DNA from: Pseudarthrobacter chlorophenolicus
Lineage (GTDB): Bacteria; Actinomycetota; Actinomycetes; Actinomycetales; Micrococcaceae
Assembly: GCF_000962805.1 (NCBI RefSeq)
Contig: NZ_JZTW01000011.1
Location: forward strand, 62,001-126,000
Length of the DNA: 64,000 nt
Reading direction: 5' to 3'
Below, piece after piece: positions 2,202-27,614 of the stretch; position 1 is the stretch's first letter; each line of letters opens with the position of its first letter. Position numbers and translations under genes: made by a program. The notes under the pieces were generated by a model, which was not told the DNA's origin, did not search any database, and worked only from the letters and a program-made list of their open reading frames with translations.

Positions 2202-3478
2202 CGCAACGCCGCAGCGGGGCGGTGGTCGCCGCCGCGCATCCGCACCGCCACGACAATCCCGGACACCGCGGTGAGTCCGGCGACGGCGGCGACAGCCACC
2301 GGAATTCCGTACAGGTCCGCGATGAGCCCGGCGAGCAGCGCACCTGCGGCAAACCCGGCGTCGCGCCATAGCCGGTAAATCCCGACGGCGCGTGCCCGCC
2401 ACGCAGGGTGCGCGACGTCTCCGATGCTGGCCAGCAGGGTGGGATACACCATGGCGGTGCCGACGCCGAGGACGACGGCGGCCCCGAGCCATGCCTCGAA
2501 GGTGCTGCCTACCGCGACCATTGCCAGGGCTGCGGCCTGTACCAGCATGCCTGCGGCTATGAACCATTTGCGGCCCCAGCGGTCCGAGGCGGCACCGGTC
2601 ACCAGCTGCGCGGCTCCCCAAACGGCTGGGTAGGCGGCGGCAATGATGCCGATCTGGCCCACGCCCAGGCCGGCGCCGGCAAACAGGACGGGGAAGAGAC
2701 CCCAGGCGAGCCCGTCGTTGAGGTTGTTGACCAGGCCGGCCTGGCTGGCCGCCGAGAGGGAGTGGTCCCTGAAGCTGGTCAGTGTGAACACCTGGCCCGT
2801 GCTGAGGCCGGCTCCGGCAGCACCGGGTGTTCCGGACGCCTCGGCCGTGGCATGGTGGTGGGTTTCGCGGACGGCCAGGACTGTCAGGCCCAGCCCCAGG
2901 GCGATGTAGGCCGCTCCGAGGAGGAACGGTGCCGGCCGGAGCCCGTAAGTGGTGGCGAGGTAGCCGGTAGCCAGTGCCGTGGCAGCCACGCCAAGGTAGC
3001 CGGCCGCTTCGTTGAAGCCCATGGCCAGGCCCCGCTGGCCCGGGCCAACCAGGTCCATTTTCATGATCACGGCCGTGGACCAGGTCAGGCCCTGGCTGAT
3101 GCCCAGCAGGACGTTGGCCGCCACAATCCAGTCCCAGGAGGGGGCGAGGATCAGCATGTCGGGGACCGGGAGTGCTGCCAGCCAGCCGGCGACGAGGACG
3201 GGCTTGCGGCCGTATTTGTCGGAGAGCGTCCCCGCAAAATAGTTCATTGCGGCCTTGGACAGCCCGAACGCGAGGATGTACGTCAGCGCCCCGGTGTAGA
3301 GGTCCAGGTGGAAAGCCTCCGTGGCCGGGAGGGGCAGTACGGTGCGTTCCTGCCCCAGCGTGCCGCCCACCAGCGCGTTGACGGCAACGAGCAGCAGGAA
3401 CTGGGCCAGGTTCTGCCGCAGTCCCAGCACCGGGCGTCGCGTCGCTGCGGGGTTCTCGGGACGTGTGCTGCCGGGCAT
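2198..3478 (-). CDS. MFS transporter
   Basis: A 426-aa major facilitator protein with about twelve hydrophobic segments. Family loop motifs are visible: GTLSDKYGRKPVLVAGW after helix 2 and GAASDRWGRKWFIAAG in the second half. The ATG at 3478 is chosen because GGAG lies seven bases upstream on the coding strand. A longer frame exists but its extra residues are read from the hairpin array at 3509-3642 and look non-coding. The gene follows the MBL/rhodanese gene on the same strand, so export of a sulfur compound or a linked metabolite is a guess from context. The substrate cannot be told from sequence. Confidence 0.8.
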   Translation of the reverse strand: MPGSTRPENPAATRRPVLGLRQNLAQFLLLVAVNALVGGTLGQERTVLPLPATEAFHLDLYTGALTYILAFGLSKAAMNYFAGTLSDKYGRKPVLVAGWLAALPVPDMLILAPSWDWIVAANVLLGISQGLTWSTAVIMKMDLVGPGQRGLAMGFNEAAGYLGVAATALATGYLATTYGLRPAPFLLGAAYIALGLGLTVLAVRETHHHATAEASGTPGAAGAGLSTGQVFTLTSFRDHSLSAASQAGLVNNLNDGLAWGLFPVLFAGAGLGVGQIGIIAAAYPAVWGAAQLVTGAASDRWGRKWFIAAGMLVQAAALAMVAVGSTFEAWLGAAVVLGVGTAMVYPTLLASIGDVAHPAWRARAVGIYRLWRDAGFAAGALLAGLIADLYGIPVAVAAVAGLTAVSGIVVAVRMRGGDHRPAAALR

Positions 3479-3508
3479 ACGGGGACTCCGTTCGGTGGGC
3501 ATGAAGGT

Positions 3509-3642
3509 GCCCGGGCGCGCTTGGGGGAAGCGCACCCGGGCGGGTTGCCCCGAGCGTTGGGGGTAACGCTCAGGGCGTGCCCGCGCCGTTCGGGGAAACG
3601 TGCGCGGGCGGAGCCCGGGCGGGAGGGGGGTCCTGCCCGGGC
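3509..3642 (-). repeat. Array of four consecutive hairpins with G-rich (C-rich in RNA) loops
   Basis: Four stem-loops follow one another between the MBL/rhodanese gene and the MFS gene. (1) arms 3509-3522 and 3528-3541, 14 bp with one mismatch, loop GGGGG. (2) arms 3552-3558 and 3565-3571, perfect 7 bp, loop GGGGGT. (3) arms 3579-3590 and 3597-3609, one bulge, loop CGGGGA. (4) arms 3613-3624 and 3631-3642, one mismatch, loop GGGGGG. In the transcript of the two flanking genes the loops are runs of C. No U-run follows, so they are not classical terminators. They may set the ratio of the two products by RNA processing or attenuation. Confidence 0.75.
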
Positions 3643-3653
3643 GGTCTGTCCGG

Positions 3654-5066
3654 TTAGTGGGCGGCCACGGCGTTGGGCCGGGACTGCCGCCACATGCTCC
3701 AGGCCGCGTAGCTGCCGTCAAGTTCGACGACGTCATACCCTGCACGGCGCAGGGCGCTGGCTGCTACGGAGTTCCGGACGCCGGACTGGCAGTAGGTGAC
3801 GATTGAGCCGTTGGCGGGAAGCTCGTCCAGGTGCCACATCACACGACCACCGCTGAGCTGGTACGAGCCCGGAATGTGGCCGGCCGTGTGCTCGGTCTTG
3901 TTGCGGACGTCCAGGACCATGGCGGCGTCGTAGCCGTCCAGTTCTTCGGGCTGGATGAGCTTTGGGGTGAAGGTGGGCAGTTCCTCGATGCCGGTGACGT
4001 AGCCGGCCGCGTTGTCGATGCCCACGCGTACCAGGTGGTCCCACATGTCCATGGCCTGGTCCTGGCCGCTGGCCAGCAGCACCAGCGGGTTCTTGTCCGT
4101 TTCCGGATTCACCACCCAGGCGCCGTAGCTGGCCACTGATTTGCCGGCCGGAACGTTCAGTGACCGGACCACGGTGCCTTCATGGACCTCGCTGTTGGAC
4201 CGGGTGTCAATGAAGGTCAGGGTGTCTTCGTCGAGGCCGGCGGCCACTATGCCGGCGGAAAGCTCCGGCAGCGGGGTGCGTTCACCCATGACGGCCGGGC
4301 CTACCCGGTTTTCACGCTTCATGCGGCCGAAGTAGGCGTGCGCGTCCGGCTGCCCGTCGAGGAGTTCATCGATGAAGCCCTGCTCATCGTTGGCGGCCAG
4401 GTACGGCCCCCACCAGGCGTAGAGCCGTTCGTAGCCCACCGTGGAGGACGGGATGGCACCCAGCGCCTTGCCGCAGGCGCTGCCCGCGCCGTGGGCCGGG
4501 TGGACCTGGACGTAATCCGGCAGGGTGAGGAATTTGTCCCGCAGGCTGGCGAACAGCTGCCTGGCACCCTCGAAGCGGGTATCGATGCCGCCGGCGGCCT
4601 CGTCCAGGAGATCCGGCCGGCCCAGGTCGCCGGAGAAGACGAAGTCACCGGACAGCAGGTAGCCCGGCTGGTCACTGAAGGCGCCGTCCGTGACCAGGAA
4701 GGACAGGTGCTCGGGCGTGTGGCCGGGAGTGTGGAGGGCCTTGATGGTGATGTTGCCCAGCCTGATGGCGTCGCCGTCGTACAGCCGTTCGCCGTCGAAT
4801 TCGTACTGCCAGTCCGGGCCGCCTTCGCCGGAAACGTACACCTTGGCACCGGTCGCGGCTGCCAGTTCGCGGGTGCCGGAGAGGTAGTCGGCGTGGATGT
4901 GGGTTTCGGTGACGGCCACGATTTTCATGCCGTTCTTCGCTGCGAGGTCCTGGTAAACGGCGATGTCGCGGCGTCCGTCAACCACAATGGCTTCACCCTT
5001 GGCCTGGCAGCCGATCAGGTAGCTGGCCTGGGCGAGGTCTTCATCGTAAATGCGCTCGATAAGCAT
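3654..5066 (-). CDS. MBL-fold hydrolase with two C-terminal rhodanese domains (CstB/persulfide dioxygenase type)
   Basis: The 470-aa protein starts with a metallo-beta-lactamase fold domain (about residues 1-240). It carries THIHADYLSG, which supplies the HxHxD metal ligands, then HTPGH and later VHPAHGAG with further ligand His. Two rhodanese-like domains follow (about 265-355 and 370-465). The second has YCQSGVRN, with the active-site Cys of the CxxGxR loop. The first has no Cys at the expected place, so only one is likely catalytic. Enzymes of this build oxidise glutathione, CoA or low-molecular-weight persulfides and transfer sulfane sulfur. The start is supported by AAGGAGAG upstream. 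No CstR operator is seen next to it; the matching orphan promoter lies 10 kb away at 15213-15242. Confidence 0.85.
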   Translation of the reverse strand: MLIERIYDEDLAQASYLIGCQAKGEAIVVDGRRDIAVYQDLAAKNGMKIVAVTETHIHADYLSGTRELAAATGAKVYVSGEGGPDWQYEFDGERLYDGDAIRLGNITIKALHTPGHTPEHLSFLVTDGAFSDQPGYLLSGDFVFSGDLGRPDLLDEAAGGIDTRFEGARQLFASLRDKFLTLPDYVQVHPAHGAGSACGKALGAIPSSTVGYERLYAWWGPYLAANDEQGFIDELLDGQPDAHAYFGRMKRENRVGPAVMGERTPLPELSAGIVAAGLDEDTLTFIDTRSNSEVHEGTVVRSLNVPAGKSVASYGAWVVNPETDKNPLVLLASGQDQAMDMWDHLVRVGIDNAAGYVTGIEELPTFTPKLIQPEELDGYDAAMVLDVRNKTEHTAGHIPGSYQLSGGRVMWHLDELPANGSIVTYCQSGVRNSVAASALRRAGYDVVELDGSYAAWSMWRQSRPNAVAAH

Positions 5067-5319
5067 GAGGTGCTCTCCTTATGTTGTTGTCGGGTGGTTC
5101 CGCGGCTGTTGTAGGGTCGTGGCTACCCAGGGGAGGCAGGTATGGCTTTGTTGCTGTGGCTGGACGATTCACGTCGTTACGGCTTCGAAGGATTGGCCGC
5201 CCGCACTCTCCGCGATGACCCGACCGCTGATTGAGAGACGCGACATGATCGCCGGATAAGGACACGACGGCGCGGTTATCTGCTGGGCTCTACCCAATCC
5301 CACAGACTGGAGGCTGTTC
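5067..5319 (+). other. Non-coding region between the MBL gene and the IS110 transposase
   Basis: About 250 bp without a convincing gene. It must hold the leader of the minus-strand MBL gene (RBS at 5075-5083) and the left end of the IS110 element, whose boundary I cannot place. IS110-family elements are known to encode a structured bridge RNA in such an end region, so this is the place to look for one. GGAGG at 5309-5313 is the RBS of the transposase. Confidence 0.4.
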
Positions 5320-6524
5320 TTGGTGCAATTATGGGCCGGCATTGACGCCGGCAAAGCCCATCACCACTGCTTTGTGATCGACGGCGACGGAAACCGCCTG
5401 CTGTCCCAACGGGTTCCCAACGATGAACCAGCACTGCTTCAGCTCTTAGCTAACGTGCTGGAGCTGGCTGCGGGGGATTCGGTGGTCTGGGCGACCGACC
5501 TGAATCGTGGCGGAGCGGCGCTGCTGATCGCCTTGCTCATCGGCCACGGCCAGGACATCCTCTACATTCCTGGCCGTGCCGTTCACCATGCCTCTAAGAT
5601 TTACCGGGGTGAAGGCAAGACAGACGCCAAAGATGCCGCAGTCATCGCGGACCAGGCCCGAATGCGAACTGACCTCCAACCGCTGCGTGCGGGGGATGAC
5701 ATCAGCACGAGCCTGCGGATCCTCACCGCGAGGCGGGCGGACAAGTCCGCTGACCGGGTCCGGGCCATCAACCGATTGCAGGCCCAGCTGCTCGAATACT
5801 TCCCTGCGCTGGAACGGGCCTTCGACTACAGCCGCTCCAAGGCCGCGCTGACGCTGCTAACAAAATACCGGACTCCAGACGGGATCCGTCGTGCCGGTGA
5901 GGCAAGGATTCACGCCTGGCTGAAGAAGCAAGGGGCGCGGTCCTCGGCCGCAGTCGCCGCATCAGCAGTAGAGGCCGCGAAATCCCAGCACACGACGGTT
6001 CCCGCACAGGGTATGGGAAAGGAGATTGTTGCCGCACTCGCCAAGGTAATCCTCACCCTGAACGAGGAGCTGGTCGAACTCGATGCTCTCATCAGCAAAA
6101 AAGTCACCGAACACCGGCACGCGATGGTGCTGTTGAGCATGCCCGGCTTCGGCCCGGTTCTTGCAGCCGAGTTCCTCGGTGCTACAGGTGGGGATCTCAC
6201 GGTCTTTCAGACTGCGGACCGGTTCGCTGGCGTAGTTGGGCTGGCTCCGGCCCCCGTGACTCCGGAAGGATTAGCGGAAACCATCATCGCCCCCGCCGTT
6301 ATGATCGCCGGCTCCTGCGGGTCTTCTACCTCTCCGGCCTGTCGGCGCTGAAATCGTGTCCGGCTTCGCGGACCTACTACGACCGAAAACGCTCCGAGGG
6401 AAAAACCCACATCCAGGCGATGCTGTCTCTTGCCCGCCGCCGACTCAACGTCCTCTGGGCCATGCTGCGCGACGGCACAAACTATGAGCCGGCTTGCTCC
6501 CAAGCACCACGTTTGGCTGCCTGA
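5320..6524 (+). pseudogene. IS110 family transposase, frameshifted in a C-run
   Basis: The frame from TTG 5320 (GGAGG six bases upstream) encodes the RuvC-like DEDD N-terminal domain (AGIDAGKAHHHCFV, later GKTDAKDAAVIAD) and the start of the transposase_20 region (LLSMPGFGPVLAAEFLGATG). At the run of five C at 6251-6255 the frame shifts. Continuing in the +2 frame gives the expected end: RDSGRISG, then YYDRKRSEGKTHIQAMLSLA, to the TGA at 6522-6524. One missing C explains it. The conserved Ser-containing C-terminal domain is cut off, so the unshifted product should be inactive. Restored length would be about 401 aa, normal for the family. Confidence 0.88.
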
Positions 6525-6615
6525 CGTAAACGACTATTGTTTCGGGTCGGCAGCCGAGTCAACGATAATCGCTGTGAGATCACTTATGGCGTTCTTCCCG
6601 CCATACTGCTTCAGC

Positions 6616-6993
6616 TCAGGTCTTGGCAGCCCCTGAATGACCGCTACCCCAAGAGTGATTCCCTCCCCACCCGTAAATCAAGGGGGTGCTGTAGTAGGAC
6701 CAGACGTTATTAGCTCCGTATACCCAGCCGCCCCTGACCTGGTGGTACTGGTCGTAGACGGCTACAGATACTTGTGCGTTGCCAAACCAGCAAAAGTTAC
6801 CGTATTCGTTGGTGTTTGCTTCCGCTCGGCCGTAGCTGTTCCATGCACTGGATCCGGAATAGTAGCCCTCGTTGCAGCCGTAGGGCTGTATTTTCCACGT
6901 CCCCGAACTGTAGGCCGATCCCGGGGCTGCCGAAACTATGGACAGACAGGAGGCAGCTATCACGGTCATGGCTGCCATTCTGAGGGTTCTCAC
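6616..6993 (-). CDS. Small secreted aromatic- and Gly-rich protein, unknown
   Basis: A 125-aa protein with a clear signal peptide (MRTLRMAAMTVIAASCLSIV, cleavage near SAAPGSAYS). The mature part of about 95 aa is rich in Tyr, Trp, Gly, Ser and Asn, has two Cys (YGCNEG and NFCWFG) that could form one disulfide, and ends in repeated Gly-His/Ser-Trp. It starts at GTG with AGGGGA five bases upstream. It lies 10 bp after the membrane-anchored protein gene on the same strand, so the two are probably cotranscribed. A secreted bacteriocin-like or surface role is possible but no known family was recognised. Base composition is lower in GC than in flanking chromosomal genes. Confidence 0.6.
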   Translation of the reverse strand: MRTLRMAAMTVIAASCLSIVSAAPGSAYSSGTWKIQPYGCNEGYYSGSSAWNSYGRAEANTNEYGNFCWFGNAQVSVAVYDQYHQVRGGWVYGANNVWSYYSTPLIYGWGGNHSWGSGHSGAAKT

Positions 6994-7002
6994 AACGTTC
7001 CC

Positions 7003-7500
7003 CTAACGCTTGTCGGATGAATTTTGGCGGAGAAGCAGGTTTGGTGCCTGCTTGGTCCATCCGTCGTCGTTCTTCACTGATTCAAGGGTGTCGTCAGCGG
7101 CGGAAGGGATCACCAACCATGCCTGCTCAGTGCGCTCTTCATTTTCAATTCGGAGCCCGTAGGACTCGAATCCTTCCAGTGTGGTGCAGCCGACAAATTC
7201 ACCACCGCCATCGCCACGTACTGGGATCATGCACATTTTGTTGTCTGCTGGGACGACATAATATTTCAAGTGTGAACCCTCGCCCACAAGCCTCGTTAAA
7301 GCGGAATCAATTTTAATCGGAAGGCGCTCACTCACCCGTAAAGGCAGCTTGTCTTTTGCTGTTTGAGGAAGGGCCAGGGAATGGACTATTCGAGATGCAT
7401 CTCGTGATCTATCCGCCGGCGGAGCTGTAACTGCCACGATCCCTGCCGCGGTGCCGAGAAGGATTGCTCCACCAAGGAAAAACTTTAGGCGCTTTTGCAT
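7003..7500 (-). CDS. Membrane-anchored extracytoplasmic protein, unknown
   Basis: A 165-aa product with a single hydrophobic segment near the N-terminus (KFFLGGAILLGTAAGIVAVT) followed by about 135 polar residues, so it is anchored and faces outwards. Two Cys (NKMCMIP and FVGCTTLEG) may pair. The ATG at 7500 is chosen because GGGGGAG lies just upstream on the coding strand. A longer frame to 7770 overlaps the divergent gene and its extra residues look non-coding. It is followed after 10 bp by the small secreted protein. No family was recognised; this is an anchored-partner/secreted-partner pair by layout only. Confidence 0.6.
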   Translation of the reverse strand: MQKRLKFFLGGAILLGTAAGIVAVTAPPADRSRDASRIVHSLALPQTAKDKLPLRVSERLPIKIDSALTRLVGEGSHLKYYVVPADNKMCMIPVRGDGGGEFVGCTTLEGFESYGLRIENEERTEQAWLVIPSAADDTLESVKNDDGWTKQAPNLLLRQNSSDKR

Positions 7501-7651
7501 GTCATCTCCCCCAAGATAGCGATAAAACGAGGGTAGAACCTCAAGCATGTCCTTGGCAATAGCCGATATTATTCGTTCCCATTGACCTCGTGAAGACGAC
7601 GGTGTAGCTTCCCCACTATAGATTTGCTGGCCATCAATTGGGGGATTCACT

Positions 7652-7942
7652 ATGAGTACCAGCGTGCCCGGATTACCAGAACCGAAGCTGCCTAAGCGGC
7701 GTGCCTTCTTCCGAGGCGTCCTCAGGACTCTTGGGATCGGATTTGTTGCTGCTGCCGGTCTACCCAGCACCTCGCCTGCTCATGCAGATCCGCATGTTCA
7801 CTGCGAGTACACAACCAAGAAGTTAGTCTGGTTGCGATGCAACTGCAACACCTGGCTAGAGGACTGGCGACATAGTTGCACTGGTTGCGGTAGTACGTGC
7901 TTCACCATCACAGTAATCACTGGCAAATACTGCATTTCATAG
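7652..7942 (+). CDS. Tat-exported Cys-rich small protein
   Basis: A 96-aa precursor. KRRAFFRG matches the twin-arginine pattern and is followed by a hydrophobic stretch and a cleavage-like site (PSTSPAHA-DPH), leaving a mature peptide of about 50 aa. That peptide has seven Cys and three Trp, including LRCNCNTW and DWRHSCTGCGSTC. Tat export suggests it folds, is modified, or is kept reduced before leaving the cell. The gene is first of three closely spaced plus-strand genes ending in a MauE-like protein. The methylamine dehydrogenase light chain is also Tat-exported, Cys-rich, dependent on MauE and has a WRHC segment, but this peptide is much shorter, so the likeness is one of architecture. 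GGGGGA lies upstream of the ATG. Confidence 0.65.
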   Translation: MSTSVPGLPEPKLPKRRAFFRGVLRTLGIGFVAAAGLPSTSPAHADPHVHCEYTTKKLVWLRCNCNTWLEDWRHSCTGCGSTCFTITVITGKYCIS

Positions 7943-7966
7943 ACCTAAGAACGGCAGGGAAGCACC

Positions 7967-8257
7967 ATGCAGCACAAAGTAAAGGTACGCGAAGTACATA
8001 AAAATGAACGTGATGAAATCGGTCCTCAGGACCGCCCTCCCTACATCTCGTTGGAACAGCTTGTCTCTTCCTTCGGTGGTTATGAGTTCAACCTTGAGTT
8101 GAGCGATGGCACAAAGGTGCCAGTGTCTGTCAGGCAATTTATGGGAAGGGACCCACGGACCACCTTCCTTCGAGTGGAAGTTGAATCGCGACCTGAAAAT
8201 GAAAAGGAATCGGCGGAGTTTGACGCCCGAGCCCAGGCGCGTCACGGGAAGAAATAG
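7967..8257 (+). CDS. Small soluble protein in the MauE-like locus, unknown
   Basis: A 96-aa, highly charged, Cys-free protein without signal peptide or membrane segment. The middle (YISLEQLVSSFGGYEFNLEL) looks folded, while both ends are Lys/Arg/Glu-rich. It sits 24 bp after the Tat-exported peptide gene and 3 bp before the MauE-like gene, so the three form one operon. From position it could be a chaperone or binding partner that handles the Cys-rich precursor in the cytosol. No family was recognised. Confidence 0.6.
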   Translation: MQHKVKVREVHKNERDEIGPQDRPPYISLEQLVSSFGGYEFNLELSDGTKVPVSVRQFMGRDPRTTFLRVEVESRPENEKESAEFDARAQARHGKK

Positions 8258-8260
8258 CTT

Positions 8261-8671
8261 ATGGATACAGTGCTGCTTACAGCACTCAGTCTCTTCCTGT
8301 TTATAACTCTCTTCTTTCCCGCAGTAACAAAAATCAAGAGGCGTCCGATCCTCGTAGCCTACTATTCTGAGTTACTCGAGGTAGATGTAAAGGTCGTACG
8401 GCTTGCACTATCCGTTACATGCATTGCCGAAAGTATTCTCGCATTCGGTATTCTATTCCGAATCATTCCTGTTATTACGGGAACTATTACGCTTAGTTTG
8501 CTTTTAGCGTTTCTCGGCTTCCGTATCCTCATTCTTTCCAGATCTAGAGGCCGCGCATCGTGCGGGTGCGACGGATCCACGGCGGCCATCTCCGCACCGG
8601 AAAGTCTTGGCGCTTTGGTGGGCACTGTGATCTTGGTGGCCACTGCAGGGGCGTGGATGATTCTGGCGTAG
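8261..8671 (+). CDS. MauE/DoxX-like redox membrane protein
   Basis: A 136-aa integral membrane protein with about four hydrophobic helices (near residues 5-22, 45-65, 70-90 and 113-135). Between helices 3 and 4 is the paired-Cys motif SCGCDG, which corresponds to the CGCFG motif I know from MauE, the membrane protein needed for disulfide-rich methylamine dehydrogenase light chain maturation. Length and topology fit that family. It ends the three-gene operon starting with the Cys-rich Tat peptide, which makes oxidation or quality control of that peptide the obvious hypothesis. No methylamine dehydrogenase subunit is present nearby. Confidence 0.7.
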   Translation: MDTVLLTALSLFLFITLFFPAVTKIKRRPILVAYYSELLEVDVKVVRLALSVTCIAESILAFGILFRIIPVITGTITLSLLLAFLGFRILILSRSRGRASCGCDGSTAAISAPESLGALVGTVILVATAGAWMILA

Positions 8672-8850
8672 AGGTTCCGAAGAGGATTGAGCCGGCTGTG
8701 TTCTTAGTGAAGCACTGACTGGGAGGGCCCAGCGCATCGGATCGTCCCTTCTTCGGAGACCGTCGATGAGCGGCCAAATGAGTGGCTCACCCCCAAAGTT
8801 GAAGGCAGCGATGACGCTGCAGCGCTGAGTAGTCCTTTTGAGGGAAAAAT

Positions 8851-8878
8851 TGAGGCCGGCCCCAACGGGCCGGCCTCA
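8851..8878. terminator. Strong GC-rich stem-loop after the MauE-like gene
   Basis: Perfect 12-bp inverted repeat (TGAGGCCGGCCC and its complement, arms 8851-8862 and 8867-8878) with loop CAAC. It is preceded by an A-run and followed by CCCTTT, so it can work in both directions. It lies about 180 bp after the MauE-like gene. The ISL3 element is inserted only 11 bp beyond it. Confidence 0.65.
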
Positions 8879-8889
8879 GCCCTTTAACC

Positions 8890-10336
8890 GGCTCTTCACG
8901 GTTCGTGGTGAATGTTCTGCCGTGATGGACATTCATGCCGCTGTTTTGGCGGCACTGCGCAACAGGATACGCGTTTTATAGTTACGGGCGTTGGTGAATC
9001 CCCGGCCTGTCCTTTTTATGTGCTTGATCGCGGTGTTGTTAGCTTCCACTTTCGCCGTTGTCGCGCCGGTGACAATGAGGACCTCAATCTCTTTCCACCA
9101 GCGGCAGATGGTGCGCCAAAACCGGTTCGTTTCCGGCTGCGCAGCACGTTCTACGAGAGCCTGCAGTCGGTCTTTCGCAGCGGCCGCGTCGGCGAGGGAT
9201 CCGGTGGCGAGCAGGGTCCGCAGCTGCTCCTTGACCAGCCAGGCGGCCTGCAGCTTCCCGGTGGCGTCGTCGATGGCGAACACGGTGCTGAGCCTGTTTC
9301 GTGCCCGGTCCGAGAGTGTGTCACCGGCCCGCAGTAGCAGCCTTCGGTTGGCCCAGACGGGATCAATGGAGCGTCCCCGCCGGCCGTGGACCTGCTGGGT
9401 GAGCCGTTGGCGGACCTCGGTAACCATGTCGTTGCCCAGCTTGACGAGGTGAAACGCGTCGACCGAGACGGCGGTGCGCGGAAGCCACATCCGCAACGCC
9501 TTGCGGAACGCAGCTGACGGATCGATTGCGACGACCTGCACGCCCAGGCGCCACTGAAGAGGCCGGGCGAACAGCCAGTCTCCGACGCCTTCGCTGTCGC
9601 GGCCGTCGACGATCCCGAGAACTTGTCCGGTGTCCAGATCGACGATGGTGGTCATCCAGGGTTCGTAGCGTTTCCAGGCCTTGGTGGCAGGGTCGCGGAA
9701 GAACCGCACGGAACGGTAGCGGTGTTCATCGATGCCGAGCATCCGGGGTGCCAGGGCATCAACGTCAGGCAGGGTCAGCGCCGCTGAGTCCAGGGCCCGC
9801 TGGACCAGCCACCAGGAGATATCGAAAGAGGAAGCCGTCTCGGCGGCGGCCCTTCCGGAACCGATGACAGCCCCCACGAGGGCGTCGCGGAGCCGGCGGG
9901 TGGACCGAGCGCGGCGTGGGACCTGGGCGGTCTCCTCGGCGAATGTCCGCCGCGGGCAAAGGTACTCATCGCAGAAGAATCTCCGCTTGGACCAGATCAC
10001 TTCGACCGGACCGGCGACGGGGATGTCGCGCAGTCGTTGTGGCCGGCGTGAATGCACCCGCGTGCTGATCACACCACAGGACGGGCAGCCGGCCTCGGCA
10101 GTGGCTTCGACGCGGACGCGCCGCTGCCCGAAGGCGAGGACCTCGGTGCCGGTGACGCGGTAGTCGGGCAGGTTGAAAATGGCGGTGGCAGCATCGGGGC
10201 GCGGGGAAGTAGGCTCGATCAAGGCTCGTAGCTCCTGACTCTTGATGAATGCGTAGAGAACATCCATCACAGCAGGGCTACGAGCCCTTCAGCTTTCAAG
10301 ACACGGAATCCGCTTCACCACGAACCACGGAGAGCC
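8890..10336 (-). mobile_element. Complete ISL3 family insertion sequence, 1447 bp
   Basis: Both ends are visible. The left end is 8890-8912 (begins GGCTCTTCACGGTTCG) and the right end is 10314-10336 (ends GAACCACGGAGAGCC). As 23-bp terminal inverted repeats they agree at 20 positions. They are flanked by the direct repeat CTTTAACC at 8882-8889 and 10337-10344, the 8-bp target duplication typical of ISL3. Intact ends, an intact transposase and a perfect target duplication indicate a recent single insertion. Rejoining the flanks gives GCCCTTT-AACCGCTGA-AAAGGGC, so the target was a hairpin loop. Confidence 0.93.
8933..10267 (-). CDS. ISL3 family transposase
   Basis: A 444-aa transposase with the ISL3 layout. 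An N-terminal zinc-finger-like part has CPSCG near residue 60 and a second Cys pair around FFCDEYLCPRRTF. A DDE-type catalytic core follows, with MLGIDEHRYR, VVAIDPSAAFRKAL and SVDAFHLVKLGND. The C-terminus has the conserved EANNTAIKHIKRTGRGFTN. The catalytic frame is full-length and uninterrupted, so the element may be active. The ATG at 10267 is used; a GTG three bases earlier is also possible. It fills nearly the whole element, leaving about 45-70 bp to each end. Confidence 0.93.
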   Translation of the reverse strand: MDVLYAFIKSQELRALIEPTSPRPDAATAIFNLPDYRVTGTEVLAFGQRRVRVEATAEAGCPSCGVISTRVHSRRPQRLRDIPVAGPVEVIWSKRRFFCDEYLCPRRTFAEETAQVPRRARSTRRLRDALVGAVIGSGRAAAETASSFDISWWLVQRALDSAALTLPDVDALAPRMLGIDEHRYRSVRFFRDPATKAWKRYEPWMTTIVDLDTGQVLGIVDGRDSEGVGDWLFARPLQWRLGVQVVAIDPSAAFRKALRMWLPRTAVSVDAFHLVKLGNDMVTEVRQRLTQQVHGRRGRSIDPVWANRRLLLRAGDTLSDRARNRLSTVFAIDDATGKLQAAWLVKEQLRTLLATGSLADAAAAKDRLQALVERAAQPETNRFWRTICRWWKEIEVLIVTGATTAKVEANNTAIKHIKRTGRGFTNARNYKTRILLRSAAKTAA

Positions 10337-10368
10337 CTTTAACCGCTGAAAAGGGCGTCCGCTGGCGC

Positions 10369-10641
10369 GGCCGGCTGTTGGGTCCAGGGCGTGCCGTCGC
10401 AGAGCTCCGGACCCCCTGGCCCTGTTCTGTCTACGACGTTTTGGCTGCTGTCCTGACGGATTGTACGTGTCCGCTCCGGCCCGTCTAGCCCCTCCTTCGT
10501 CGGGGCCTGCGGTGAGGAATTCTTCGACGGCGCTCCTCCGTCGCTGATTTCCTTACGAAGATTTCCGCCCCTTGCCCTTACGGGTAGACAGGCCTCCGTC
10601 GGCCACAGCTCCGCAAGCTTCGCCAGCAGCCAAAACAACAA
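10369..10641. repeat. ~270-bp direct repeat, copy 1
   Basis: This stretch is about 90 percent identical, in the same orientation, to 14665-14934. Within it, GTTTTGGCTGCTG (10438-10450) and its exact complement CAGCAGCCAAAAC (10624-10636) bound a 199-bp core, giving it the look of a small non-coding element with 13-bp inverted ends. No convincing gene lies in it; short frames differ between copies. It begins 25 bp beyond the ISL3 target duplication. Function unknown: a MITE-like element, a recombination site or the remnant end of a larger element are all possible. Confidence 0.8.
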
Positions 10642-10939
10642 CTGTGAGTCTTGACGTGGCTGGTCTGGGACTAGCTGGCAGTGTTAGTGCCGGTCGTTCT
10701 GCTTGGCGCGTGACTCGAAAAAACAATTGCCCCTGGAGGGTGCGTTTCCCCCGATTTGTCCACGCCGGGTGGAGCAACCGGCGCTGATCTGTCCCACGTC
10801 GTTGGCTTGATTAGAAGCTTGCCCAACCTGTGAGGTTGTGGCTCATCACAGTTTTGCCGCGGAGTGACCCTTCCCAGATCCGGCGCCGGTCGTGCTGCGA
10901 CCTGTCCTGTCAGTTCGAAATGAAAGGAGGGTGGCCGCG
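10642..10939 (+). other. Non-coding region upstream of the second IS110 transposase
   Basis: About 300 bp with no convincing gene. It runs from the end of the ~270-bp repeat to the transposase start, with the RBS AAAGGAGG at 10923-10930. It should contain the left end of the IS110 element and, by analogy with the family, a possible bridge RNA. I could not place the element boundary. Confidence 0.4.
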
Positions 10940-12100
10940 TTGACCCTCGTTGCGCAGACCCGCCCGTTCATAATCGGCGTGGACTGCCACGCCCGCACCC
11001 ACACGTACGCCATCATCGAAGCCAACAACAAGCAGCAGGTCGCGTGCGAGCAGTTTCCGACCACCTCGGCGGGGATCTCACGCGCACTTGCTTGGGTAGC
11101 CCGAAGGACAGACGGCGATATGGGCTGTTTATGGGCTGTGGAGGGTATCGGCTCATATGGGGCACGTTTAGCTAGGGCAGTAACGGACGCCGGTTACGAC
11201 GTCGCCGAAGCACCACGAATGAATCCCCGAGGCCGTCGAGGGCTGGGCAAATCCGACCCATTGGATGCTGCAGCCATCGGAATCGCTGTGCTGGGCTTGC
11301 AGGAGTCCCACCTCCGGACTCCGCGAAAGGATGAAGGAACCCGTGCCGGACTCAGGATTCTAAGTGCAGCCCGTGATCAGCTGACACGGGAACGAACAGT
11401 GAACGTCAACGCACTCATCGCCCTTCTAAGGGCTCATGATCTGGGAATCGACGCCCGTAAACCTTTGGTGCCGGCGCAGATCGCCATTATCACCAGGTGG
11501 CGGGAACGACAGGAGCAGTTAGAGCTATCAATCGCGCGCGAGGAAGCAATCCGTTTATCACGCCGCGTCTTGGAAGTAACCGCGCAGCTCACGGCGAACC
11601 AGAAGCGGATGACAGAACTGATTCAGCAGAGCCCTGCTGCGCCGCTACTGGACATGGTGGGCGCCGGGGCCGTCACAGTATCAGCTGTCCTGACGGCCTG
11701 GTCGCATCCAGGCAGGGTTCGCAACGAAGCTGCTTTCGCCTCACTGGCAGGGGTGAGTCCCTTGCCAGCCTCAAGCGGCAACATTGTCCGGCACAGACTC
11801 AACAGAGGCGGTGACAGGCGCCTTAACCGTGCCTTGCACACCATCACCATGACCCGGATGATCCACGATCCCGGCACACGCGACTACGTCGCCAAGCGCA
11901 CTCAGGAGGGCCGGAGCTACCGCGAAATCCGCAGATCCCTCAAGCGATACCTAGCCCGAACCCTCTACCGCCAACTGAACACGCTTTACGCCACCGCCGG
12001 ACCGACGCCATCTCACGCCGTAAGCGAGAAACCTCCAAAGAACTGGCCCACATCGTCAGCTCTGCGGGACCAACAATCTTGGTTGCCAGTGGTCGCCTGA
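10940..12100 (+). CDS. IS110 family transposase (recombinase)
   Basis: A 386-aa protein with the two IS110 domains. The RuvC-like DEDD domain has IIGVDCHARTHTYAII, then WAVEGIGSYGARLARAV and GKSDPLDAAAIGIA. The C-terminal transposase_20 domain has LLDMVGAGAVTVSAVLTAW, AGVSPLPASSGNIVRHRLNR and GGDRRLNRALHTITMTRM, including the Ser-rich segment expected to hold the nucleophilic Ser. The frame is intact. The TTG at 10940 is chosen because AAAGGAGG ends nine bases before it. It is not closely related to the IS110 copy at 5320, so the island received at least two different IS110 elements. No terminal repeats were found, as is usual for this family. Confidence 0.9.
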   Translation: MTLVAQTRPFIIGVDCHARTHTYAIIEANNKQQVACEQFPTTSAGISRALAWVARRTDGDMGCLWAVEGIGSYGARLARAVTDAGYDVAEAPRMNPRGRRGLGKSDPLDAAAIGIAVLGLQESHLRTPRKDEGTRAGLRILSAARDQLTRERTVNVNALIALLRAHDLGIDARKPLVPAQIAIITRWRERQEQLELSIAREEAIRLSRRVLEVTAQLTANQKRMTELIQQSPAAPLLDMVGAGAVTVSAVLTAWSHPGRVRNEAAFASLAGVSPLPASSGNIVRHRLNRGGDRRLNRALHTITMTRMIHDPGTRDYVAKRTQEGRSYREIRRSLKRYLARTLYRQLNTLYATAGPTPSHAVSEKPPKNWPTSSALRDQQSWLPVVA

Positions 12101-12474
12101 GTCCCTGAACTTGCTTGGGGCGCTAGTCCGGAATCAGCCGCAAACCCGGTCCCCGGCTGTAACTGTCTCATTCCCTAGAGATTTGAGGCGCGGCGGACCG
12201 AATGCCGCTGCGCCGTGGGCCAAGTGGGCGGCATCACCGAGCATGCGCAGAGCCGGACCTGTGCCTGGGCTGCGTCCTAGTTCGGCGACGAACCGCAATT
12301 GCCGCAACGGTCACTACAAGGGCAGGAACCAAAGCACGAGAGCTACGGGACTCCTGAAGGCGCCGTCGCTAACGTACGCCAAGAGGGAAACGCCCAGGTA
12401 GGAGCGGCCGCATAGTCAGCGACGACATCCACCGAGCCCGGAACTGCGGGGTCACGGAAGGAAAAGAAATGGGT
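12101..12474. other. Non-coding stretch after the IS110 transposase
   Basis: About 370 bp between the IS110 transposase and the padR promoter. It should contain the right end of the IS110 element. No inverted repeat, no RNA gene and no credible coding frame was seen; a 96-codon frame from 12111 has no RBS and no recognisable protein character. Confidence 0.5.
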
Positions 12475-12502
12475 TTGACTTACAAATCTATATAGATAGT
12501 GT
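12475..12502 (+). promoter_or_regulatory. padR promoter with palindromic operator
   Basis: TTGACT (12475-12480) and TAGTGT (12497-12502) form a -35/-10 pair with a 16-bp spacer. The spacer holds the perfect 12-bp palindrome ATCTATATAGAT (12486-12497), in keeping with autoregulation by the PadR protein. The start codon at 12509 lies six to seven bases after the -10 box, so the mRNA would start at or very near the ATG. Confidence 0.65.
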
Positions 12503-12508
12503 TGCCAT

Positions 12509-12841
12509 ATGGAGAATCTTGGACGTCTAACTCCCGCCACTGCGCTGGTACTTGAAGCACTGCTGTCAGCAGATAGCGTTTGGGGTCTCCACATCATCAG
12601 GTCCAGCGGTAAGAAACCGGGAACCATCTACCCCATCCTGGATCGACTTGAGAACGCAGGCTGGGTCGTCAGCGAATGGGACATGACCCAAGCTCGTCGA
12701 GGGCCCCGCAGGCGCTACTACCGGCTTCTCGCCGAGGCGCGTCCACTCGCACAAAAGTACGTTAAGGCTCAACGGGAAAAACTCACACCGATCACCCGGC
12801 CATCACCGGTGACGGCGGAGGCAAGATGGTTGCCGGCATGA
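12509..12841 (+). CDS. PadR family transcriptional regulator
   Basis: A 110-aa winged-helix protein of the PadR family. LTPATALVLEALLSADSVWG is followed by the KKPGTIYPILDRLENAGWVV recognition region and a wing with ARRGPRRRYYRLLAEAR. No RBS precedes the ATG and the predicted -10 box ends six bases upstream, so translation is probably leaderless. It overlaps the next gene by 16 bp, meaning the two are translationally coupled, as is common for PadR regulators and their membrane partners. Confidence 0.85.
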   Translation: MENLGRLTPATALVLEALLSADSVWGLHIIRSSGKKPGTIYPILDRLENAGWVVSEWDMTQARRGPRRRYYRLLAEARPLAQKYVKAQREKLTPITRPSPVTAEARWLPA

Positions 12842-13509
12842 CGCTCGACCGGCTGGTTCTTGCTACTTGCGTAAGACTCACGCCTAAAGGTGCTCGCTCG
12901 ATGCGAGAAGAGCAGTGGCAGGCCGATCTGTTGGACGGTCCTGACTTAGGAATCTCCAGATCAGCACTGCTGACGGCCGTGGCTCGAACCTCACTTACGT
13001 TGAGGGGCCGAGATTTGTTATACCGCGGCAGCAGTATGCTGTCGCAGCTCACTAAGGGGGAAAAATTGAAAACATTAGCGGTCGCACTGGGAACAGCAGC
13101 GGTACTAGCAGGTATTGCCGTTGCTGGGACTCAAGGAAGCGGAGCAAGCGGAACGGATAGTACCGCTGTCAAGGCGCCCATGGAAGGCCGCCCCTTGGGC
13201 GGATATGAAGGCTGGTGGACGTCCACGCCATTGTCGGGTGACACTTCTGGTCTGCCGGAAGAAACCATCGCGGTGAACACTTCCAGCGGAAAAATCGTTG
13301 ATGTTTTCAACCGAGCGGATAACGCAGCTGGGTTGACAACATCTGCTTCTAGTGTGCGTTTCGACGTTGTTTCAGATCCAGCTTGGCCCAGTAACTCTGT
13401 TGTGATTATTGATACCTCTTCCGGGAATGTTATCGAAATTTTCCCCGTCGATGGTAATGGATCGCCGATAATCCTCGACAAGGACGGAAAGCGACTCAAT
13501 ACCCCCTAA
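12826..13509 (+). CDS. PadR-coupled single-pass membrane protein
   Basis: A 227-aa protein in three parts. A cytosolic N-terminal part of about 65 aa includes MREEQWQADLLDGPDLGISR, a motif I associate with actinobacterial proteins encoded after PadR genes. A membrane helix follows at about residues 83-102 (LKTLAVALGTAAVLAGIAVA). An exported C-terminal part of about 125 aa is rich in Ser, Thr, Asp and Gly. The layout resembles a signal-transducing or regulatory partner of PadR. It overlaps padR by 16 bp and ends just before a strong terminator. Ligand and function unknown. Confidence 0.7.
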   Translation: MVAGMTLDRLVLATCVRLTPKGARSMREEQWQADLLDGPDLGISRSALLTAVARTSLTLRGRDLLYRGSSMLSQLTKGEKLKTLAVALGTAAVLAGIAVAGTQGSGASGTDSTAVKAPMEGRPLGGYEGWWTSTPLSGDTSGLPEETIAVNTSSGKIVDVFNRADNAAGLTTSASSVRFDVVSDPAWPSNSVVIIDTSSGNVIEIFPVDGNGSPIILDKDGKRLNTP

Positions 13510-26177: not shown

Positions 26178-26336
26178 TGTCTTGCGGTGTCGGGCTACTG
26201 CTTTTGCAGCACATGCGTGCTAATTACGTCCCGCTGACGGTGCTGCCGTTCGCGCTGGAAATGCTGGCGCTGCAACGGAGGACGTAGGCCCGCCTTCGTG
26301 GCGGTGAGCAGGGCAAATGTCGCCTAGGCTGAACCA

Positions 26337-26540
26337 ATGGATAACACCAAGAGGGCAACGCTCATTTGGTCGCTGGGGGCAGTTGTCTTCTCTCTCATCG
26401 GCGTCTACATCGCACTTACCGCCAATGGAGTCTGGTACTCCATCGTGTCGGCAGTAATTCTGCTGCTCGCCGGCTGCGCGTCCGCGGCCCGGGCCATACT
26501 CACTTCGCGCGGGCAGGCCCAGAGCGGCCGCCACAGCTAG
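26337..26540 (+). CDS. Small two-helix membrane protein
   Basis: A 67-aa protein with two hydrophobic helices (residues about 8-28 and 33-50), a short polar N-terminus and a basic C-terminal tail. No family recognised. Codon use fits the neighbourhood. It lies between the uridine operon operators and uriR, ending 36 bp before the uriR ATG. Confidence 0.6.
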   Translation: MDNTKRATLIWSLGAVVFSLIGVYIALTANGVWYSIVSAVILLLAGCASAARAILTSRGQAQSGRHS

Positions 26541-26576
26541 GACCCAAGCACTCCCTCCGCCCACTACGATCAACAT

Positions 26577-27614
26577 ATGGAATCCGCGGAACAGAGGCTG
26601 CAGCACACGCGCCCACGGCGGATCACTGCGGCCATGGTCGCAGCCCGGGCAGGCGTTTCGACGGCGACAGTATCCCTCGTGGCCAACGGCAAGACGGCGG
26701 GCCGCGTCTCCGAGGACAACGTTGCACGGGTTCGTGACGCCATTGCGGAGCTCGGCTATGTTGTGGACGGGATCGGCAGCTCGCTGGCCAAGGGCGTAAG
26801 CTCCATCGTCATCCTGGTGGCGCCTGATATCTCCAACCCCTTCTTCGCCAAGGTCATCGACGGGGTACGGGAATCACTCGGCCCGCAGTACCAGCTGCTC
26901 CTGTCCGTCACCGAAGCGGGCGAGTTTCCGCAGGCCGCCGACGTCCGGCGGCTCATGTCGCTGCGCCCGGCCGGGCTGCTGGTGGACGCACCCAACGCGG
27001 ACTTCCTCGAGGACCTCGCTTCGCCGTCGCCCCTTGTCCTGCTGGACGCGCCCGGGCTGGAATCCTACGCACCCTCTGTCAACCTCGATGTGGCCAGCGG
27101 GGCACGGCAGCTGGCAGCACACTTGGCCGCCGCCGGGCACACGGAAGCGGCCTATGTGGACAGCGTGACCGGCACCGACACGTTTGCCGTGCGCCGTGCG
27201 GCGTTTCTGGAAGAGGCCGCGGCACGTGGCATCTCCGTGAGCCCGAACAGGATCATCAGCACCACCATCGACGTGGGAACAGCGGCCGCCGCGTTCGCCG
27301 CCGCCTGGCCGGAGTGGCAGCGTGCGGGGGTGACCGCCGTGGTTTGCGGAACCGATACGCACGGTTACGGCGTGCTGCAGGAGGCCCGGGTGGCCGGGGT
27401 GCGGATCCCGGAAGAACTCGCGGTGGCCGGCTTCGACGACCTCCCCTACTCGGCCACCAGCAATCCCGGTCTGACCAGCGTCCACCTGCCCGCCACGTCA
27501 CTGGGCCAGAAAGCGGGCGAGCAGCTGCGCAGGCTGATGGAGGGCAAGTTCCTGAAGCCGGGCGGCGTCACGCTGGAAACATCGCTGGTGGTGCGCGGCT
27601 CCACTACGGCATAG
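26577..27614 (+). CDS. uriR: LacI family repressor of uridine utilisation
   Basis: A 345-aa LacI-type regulator. The N-terminal helix-turn-helix is ITAAMVAARAGVSTATVSLV with NGKTAGRVSEDNVARVRDAI, followed by the hinge and a periplasmic-binding-protein-like domain (IVILVAPDISNPFFAKVIDG, and at the end ELAVAGFDDLPYSATSNPGL). It is divergent from uriH-uriT-rbsK, with palindromic operators in between, matching the UriR of C. glutamicum in role. It ends overlapping the convergent M1 peptidase gene by 11 bp. Confidence 0.85.
   Translation: MESAEQRLQHTRPRRITAAMVAARAGVSTATVSLVANGKTAGRVSEDNVARVRDAIAELGYVVDGIGSSLAKGVSSIVILVAPDISNPFFAKVIDGVRESLGPQYQLLLSVTEAGEFPQAADVRRLMSLRPAGLLVDAPNADFLEDLASPSPLVLLDAPGLESYAPSVNLDVASGARQLAAHLAAAGHTEAAYVDSVTGTDTFAVRRAAFLEEAAARGISVSPNRIISTTIDVGTAAAAFAAAWPEWQRAGVTAVVCGTDTHGYGVLQEARVAGVRIPEELAVAGFDDLPYSATSNPGLTSVHLPATSLGQKAGEQLRRLMEGKFLKPGGVTLETSLVVRGSTTA

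Follow-up and report, generated by a model that had tools for sequence, protein, structure and literature searches.

Gene content and layout of the locus

The window, by which we mean the whole 64,000-nucleotide stretch of Pseudarthrobacter chlorophenolicus DNA that was analyzed, contains a run of three short genes that we call tat, sol and mauE (Table 1). The original prediction had described three open reading frames with gaps of 24 bp (tat-sol) and 3 bp (sol-mauE), and the frames and both gaps were borne out. The triad was also sought in other genomes, and the same gene order was found in three of them, G780 and G797 of the same genus and Psychromicrobium silvestre, which makes four genomes in two genera. 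The 3-bp gap between sol and mauE is kept in all four loci, and the gap between tat and sol measures 39 bp in P. silvestre (counted with a GTG start), 50 bp in G780 and 47 bp in G797. The three-gene boundaries first proposed proved too narrow, since two conserved exported genes, anch and lcn, adjoin the triad in all four loci. In the window this pair is divergent from the triad; in the other three loci all genes point in one direction, in the order anch, lcn, tat, sol, mauE, and P. silvestre has two copies of lcn. We took the ATG at 7500 as the start of anch, and the listed open reading frame continues to 7770. No sigma-70-type promoter was matched within 7501-7651.

Table 1. Positions in the window of the five genes and of the region between the two divergent groups
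Feature	Position	Strand	Description
tat	7652..7942	+	96-aa precursor with twin-arginine signal; mature part predicted at 51 aa, with 7 Cys
sol	7967..8257	+	96-aa soluble protein, family not recognised; conserved middle GGYxF...P
mauE	8261..8671	+	136-aa MauE-family membrane protein; CGC motif, invariant Cys54; PF07291
anch	7003..7500	-	Predicted to be exported and anchored in the membrane; two Cys invariant; oriented divergently to tat
lcn	6616..6993	-	Small secreted aromatic-rich protein; two invariant Cys; GTW ... NFCWxGN ... WGGxHxWG
Intergenic region anch/tat	7501..7651	.	Divergent; 48% GC; probable shared control region, a role suggested by position only

The tat precursor reads LPKRRAFFRGVLRTLGIGFVAAAG...SPAHA/DPHVHC..., in which KRRAFF is followed by a hydrophobic stretch and then by an AxA site, as assigned by motif. 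Its earlier description as a Cys-rich precursor with a twin-arginine motif, seven Cys and three Trp stands, with a mature part predicted from the sequence at 51 residues. A twin-arginine motif can be read in all four tat precursors, and the Pfam model TAT_signal matched two of the four, with an E value of 3.5 at best. Given the predicted cut, every mature peptide has 51 residues and exactly seven Cys, although identity with the window copy is only 35-39% for the other three. At least seven Cys within the last 51 residues occur in 2 of the 361 window open frames of at least 90 codons, tat's own frame included. This low count and the recurrence of the triad in three other genomes speak against a chance find. 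Six Cys columns are shared in the alignment; the remaining one is C65 of the window copy, and in the other three it forms the C-terminal residue. Because seven is an odd number, at least one Cys must lie outside intrachain disulfides, either free or bonded to another chain or a metal. All four peptides also have the motif DPxHxHC (DPHVHC in the window), and no known metal-binding family matched tat in Pfam or in a PDB profile search.

The methylamine dehydrogenase light chain carries two cross-linked Trp, which form tryptophan tryptophylquinone, and a modification of Trp in tat had been raised as one outcome of maturation. The mature window peptide has three Trp beside its seven Cys, but the other copies have two each in G780 and G797 and one in P. 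silvestre, and a single Trp column is invariant across the four. A Trp-Trp cross-link within tat cannot be conserved, because the P. silvestre peptide has only one Trp, and the idea of a modified Trp lost its footing accordingly. The WRH segment of the window copy is missing from the other three. We rejected tat as a relative of the light chain, since none of the four peptides matched PF02975 at E <= 10 and the PDB profile search with tat found no methylamine dehydrogenase light chain.

In the MauE family (PF07291), a CGC motif typically lies toward the end of the domain's third quarter. The third protein of the triad had been called MauE-like, and this was confirmed: it has the motif SCGCDG and scores 38.3 bits against PF07291, whose curated cut-off is 27. 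The copies of G780, P. silvestre and G797 exceed the cut-off as well, with homologs scoring 44.5 and 38.7 bits, and CGC and Cys54 are invariant in the alignment of the four. A four-helix layout of the protein is a reading from its sequence and family. A RiPP is defined by a core peptide that dedicated enzymes modify covalently, and here MauE is the only candidate for such an enzyme. The claim that dehydrogenase genes are absent held for the surroundings, as a Pfam scan of the ten open reading frames of 3654-13509, triad included, gave no dehydrogenase match. For the genome as a whole, PF02975 also had no match, which is weak evidence because the same search came up empty in all 148 genomes and all 14 controls. 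No MauD-like thioredoxin was found by Pfam among the same ten frames, and neither it nor a dehydrogenase gene was seen in the ORF lists of the other three triad loci.

At the limits applied, Pfam, NCBIfam, PHROGs and PADLOC returned no match for sol, and PADLOC gave no match for anti-phage defence at E <= 0.01. Six sequences share a conserved middle, GGYxF..E...G...P.S.....G..P..T. The structure model of sol is of low confidence (mean pLDDT 68.6), and a fold search with it returned nothing convincing, with best E values of 0.23 and 0.13. In G662 and G792 sol is present and tat is not detected, which fits poorly with a role as an escort of tat and fits immunity too.

The seven lcn sequences that we aligned begin with what looks like a signal, carry GTW or a near variant and share two invariant Cys, and six of them have WGGxHxWG near the end; the lcn model (mean pLDDT 38.2) was not usable. 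Lcn resembles lactococcin 972 in its signal peptide, a GTW near the mature start, small size and aromatic composition. We rejected it as a member of that family, however, because PF09683 matched none of the seven copies at E <= 10 and a profile comparison aligned only the signal and GTW, with a probability of 23.6. Two Cys are likewise invariant among eleven anch sequences, one of which matched NF038083 (CU044_5270 family) at E 0.0011; the window copy had no match. All eight genomic loci with a detected lcn, as well as plasmid pYJN5-2, have anch next to it, and the two occur together on two predicted conjugative plasmids.

Anch also occurs away from the triad: the joined alignment was matched in part by 21 of the 206 genus genomes, usually through its anch portion. 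In several genomes a sigma factor gene is followed by a form of anch that is extended at the N terminus. This extended form directly follows a sigma-70-type gene in L054, L057, L058, L059, L061 and L063 and a sigma-like frame in L056, and the six frames tested, from the loci other than L056, all match sigma-70 regions 2 and 4. From gene order and sequence, this is the layout of a sigma factor with a putative membrane anti-sigma partner. At another locus (L066 5182-6200, in G837), a diverged anch-like protein is accompanied by two others, one secreted, aromatic-rich and 136 aa long and the other a membrane protein of 146 aa; the arrangement may be a remote form of the anch-lcn pair.

Distribution, selection and mobility of the island

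Searching 295 genomes of the family with tat gave one clear match besides the query itself, P. silvestre (G129), at E 6.5e-15; of the seven genomes that matched, five were set aside as weak, with E values of 0.002-0.009 and 18-20 bits, and internal stops interrupt two of the five. In the genus, a search of 206 genomes with a joined alignment that omitted MauE placed tat and sol together in the own genome (G000), G780 and G797, and tblastn confirmed MauE in the latter two and found none in the corresponding stretches of G662 and G792. The full set is therefore rare, being present in 3 of 206 genus genomes and in one of seven from the genus of P. silvestre. Clear matches were confined to the own genome among 396 genomes of the order (sol query) and 394 of the class (tat and sol query), two sets that overlap. 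The joined searches scored at most seven (genus) and eight (class) first-look candidates per genome, so absence from them is not strict. Matches in G625 (order), G971 and G1027 (class) and G689, G732 and G744 (genus) were set aside as weak. A four-protein joined alignment found five loci in the contigs of named genomes, and a single-sequence tat scan of such contigs found no relative. There was no match in viral contigs scanned with MauE or in plasmids searched with tat, MauE and sol.

All five genes are under purifying selection between G780 and G797. For this one pair, the two closest copies, a simple Nei-Gojobori count gave dN/dS values of 0.16 for anch, 0.24 for lcn, 0.32 for tat, 0.13 for sol and 0.13 for mauE. 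In P. silvestre (L009 9877-11342), an in-frame stop interrupts anch and one lcn, and the second lcn copy has an altered end, beside intact tat, sol and mauE. This decay argues against an obligate link among the five genes.

The island has a GC content of 52.7%, compared to 65.3% for the window, and only 1 of 207 sampled 2.1-kb stretches is lower. A similar difference from the flanks exists in the other three loci (56.1 vs 61.9%, 56.1 vs 63.0% and 53.1 vs 59.5%). In the window the island sits between an IS110-type gene (5320-6351) and an ISL3-type element. The family match of the IS110-type transposase covers 263 of 343 positions, and this gene appears truncated or frame-shifted. The ISL3-type element (8884-10342) looks complete, with a transposase at 8933-10270 and 29-nt inverted arms that are 83% complementary. 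Neighboring genes, read from ORF lists, differ among the four triad loci. In G662 the flanking genes are those of G780, and only anch and sol were detected between them. We conclude that the low-GC island is probably mobile and was probably acquired horizontally.

Related MauE loci and known systems

Among the PF07291 matches listed for the 206 genus genomes, ten loci in nine genomes span the domain nearly fully, and the others mostly cover its first 85-95 positions. Three of these ten loci are the triads. Two more, L159 (G797, 1034-2995) and L160 (G807), encode a protein of no known kind, a MauE with CxCFG, a thioredoxin-like protein and a Tat-signal peptide in which 13 Cys fall within about 76 residues. 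The thioredoxin of L159 is above the cut-off for Thioredoxin_2 and matches the MauD model TIGR02661 at E 4e-4, below its cut-off. These loci share with the triad a MauE, a Tat-signal Cys-rich peptide and a further uncharacterized protein upstream, but they differ in the MauD-like thioredoxin, the CxCFG in place of CGC and the number of Cys, and no anch-lcn pair is seen in their 3.4 kb. In another actinobacterial family, L123 (G902, 2495-3911) has in succession a MauE, a CASC-motif gene that matches nothing in Pfam, and a Tat-signal peptide whose 14 Cys lie in a stretch of about 69 residues; the gene ends overlap. This peptide was clear in one of eight genomes of its family. It was aligned, and we do not claim it as a homolog.

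Tat-signal Cys-rich peptides thus lie beside MauE in two of the seven other nearly full-length loci listed for the genus and in 1 of 40 hand-chosen class loci. None was found among the 30 top-scoring MauE loci, only part of which have the CGCF motif, among 21 partial matches or among 15 anch loci. Flanks of about 2.5 kb were surveyed for the 40 class loci, which came from lower-scoring matches, and 1.5 kb for the 30 top-scoring and the genus loci. These counts are exploratory because the survey used three hand-set filters that were chosen once the triad had already been found; the first missed the window's own tat, and the second and third were loosened afterwards. Survey matches from the second filter in L141 and at 26220-26606 of the window, and from the first and third in L049 (one and two, in other frames), were judged spurious by eye.

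The triad resembles the mau system in having a MauE family member and, encoded beside it, a small, signal-bearing, Cys-rich candidate substrate. It differs in that it has no PF02975 match, no MauD beside MauE, a predicted product of only 51 residues and one invariant Trp. By analogy, the triad would work like a reduced mau-like maturation system that lacks MauD and the dehydrogenase.

Another parallel comes from Streptomyces, where three candidate peptide families identified with decRiPPter hold mauE homologs and have precursors with at least eight Cys each (PMC7794033). In the portion of that work that concerns them, the families are listed as candidates with no experiment given, and a role of MauE in forming light-chain disulfides is presented as speculation (PMC7794033). 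As described there, they have in common with the triad a mauE homolog and a small Cys-rich precursor, with no other mau genes reported; compared by description only, they differ in having at least eight Cys and, in one case, mauD, whereas the triad has seven Cys, no thioredoxin found, sol and the anch-lcn pair (PMC7794033). We found no account of the present locus in the openly licensed papers that were searched. Because it combines the lack of a thioredoxin gene with a new sol family and a link to anch and lcn, it appears to be new among MauE-linked loci for Cys-rich peptides.

A candidate disulfide-maturation core

We propose that the triad is a dedicated disulfide-maturation core for an exported 51-residue peptide, and we put the probability of this reading at about 0.5. 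Tat would be made as a precursor with a twin-arginine signal, whose motif is visible, and sol may bind or escort it in the cytoplasm before export. The Tat pathway would then carry the precursor across the membrane, and signal peptidase would presumably cut after the AxA motif. MauE, using its CGC motif and perhaps Cys54, would oxidize the conserved Cys to disulfides and pass the electrons into the membrane, as its family membership suggests. Outside the cell, the peptide may act alongside lcn, and anch, anchored in the membrane and with its own Cys pair, could protect against the peptide or sense it. That the island as a whole serves competition or has an antibacterial purpose is a more tentative suggestion, to which we give somewhat less than even odds.

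Several observations favor the disulfide core. The order of the triad and its 3-bp sol-mauE gap persist in four genomes of two genera, and the length and Cys number of the mature peptide are constant at low identity to the window copy. All four MauE copies exceed the family cut-off, and the five genes have dN/dS values of 0.13-0.32. Additionally, Tat-signal Cys-rich peptides stand beside other MauE genes, and the Streptomyces families, as far as they are described, offer a precedent (PMC7794033). Other findings count against it: the triad loci have no MauD-like partner that we could find, whereas the two 13-Cys loci have one; the Cys number is odd; sol occurs where tat was not detected; anch and lcn have decayed in P. 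silvestre; and the set is rare. The free-standing maturation system first envisaged for this locus is supported in part, namely in the triad with its fixed order, the MauE family assignment and the Cys-rich peptide with its Tat motif; the Trp branch and the limit to three genes are not supported.

The strongest competitor, although we think it rather unlikely, makes tat a Tat-exported bacteriocin and sol its cytoplasmic immunity protein instead of an escort, with MauE still folding tat. Sol has no signal, is strongly constrained (dN/dS 0.13) and stands without detected tat in G662 and G792, much like an orphan immunity gene, and the island is rare and looks mobile. A product exported by Tat would rarely require immunity in the cytoplasm, however; no known bacteriocin or immunity family was matched in Pfam and the further family scans, and G662 has simply lost the rest of the locus, for which no selection on sol is required. 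The odd Cys count and the invariant DPxHxHC lend themselves to another reading, in which tat would bind a metal in the cytoplasm through HxHC and further Cys, and for that reason take the Tat route, while MauE maintains its redox state. Tat is the usual route for proteins that receive a cofactor before export. We nevertheless regard a metallopeptide as improbable, given that tat matched no known metal-binding family, that no metal chaperone gene was recognized and that a disulfide-forming MauE next door would oxidize metal-binding thiols.

Two further explanations seem to us scarcely credible. A tat with modified Trp, comparable to the tryptophan tryptophylquinone of the light chain, would draw on the kinship of MauE and on the three Trp and WRH of the window copy, but the Trp counts of the other copies, the single invariant column and the confinement of WRH to the window speak against it, as do the lack of a PF02975 match and of any modifying-enzyme family among the ten frames scanned around the window triad. 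One could argue from the rarity of the triad, its flanking insertion sequences and its decayed relatives that unrelated small frames have met by chance or are decaying, yet this is contradicted by the order kept in two genera, the constant length and Cys number, and the dN/dS range. A bolder version of the disulfide core, which we consider quite improbable, would make the island a mobile cassette in which a thioredoxin-free MauE oxidizes a Tat peptide whose spare Cys joins it to lcn or another chain as a two-part weapon; sol would then be a Tat escort of a new type, whereas anch, as an ectodomain-only relative of the sigma-adjacent proteins, would serve as an immunity decoy.

MauE is known for assisting a single enzyme, and the locus bears on how MauE-type proteins select their substrates. 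If the disulfide core is real, few such systems would be smaller than this one, in which a single dedicated MauE and a single soluble partner serve a 51-residue peptide, and it could be rebuilt in a laboratory strain. The locus could then be used to test whether a MauE without MauD forms disulfides, why short Cys-rich peptides take the Tat route, and whether relatives of Arthrobacter hold a family of mobile disulfide peptides active against competitors.
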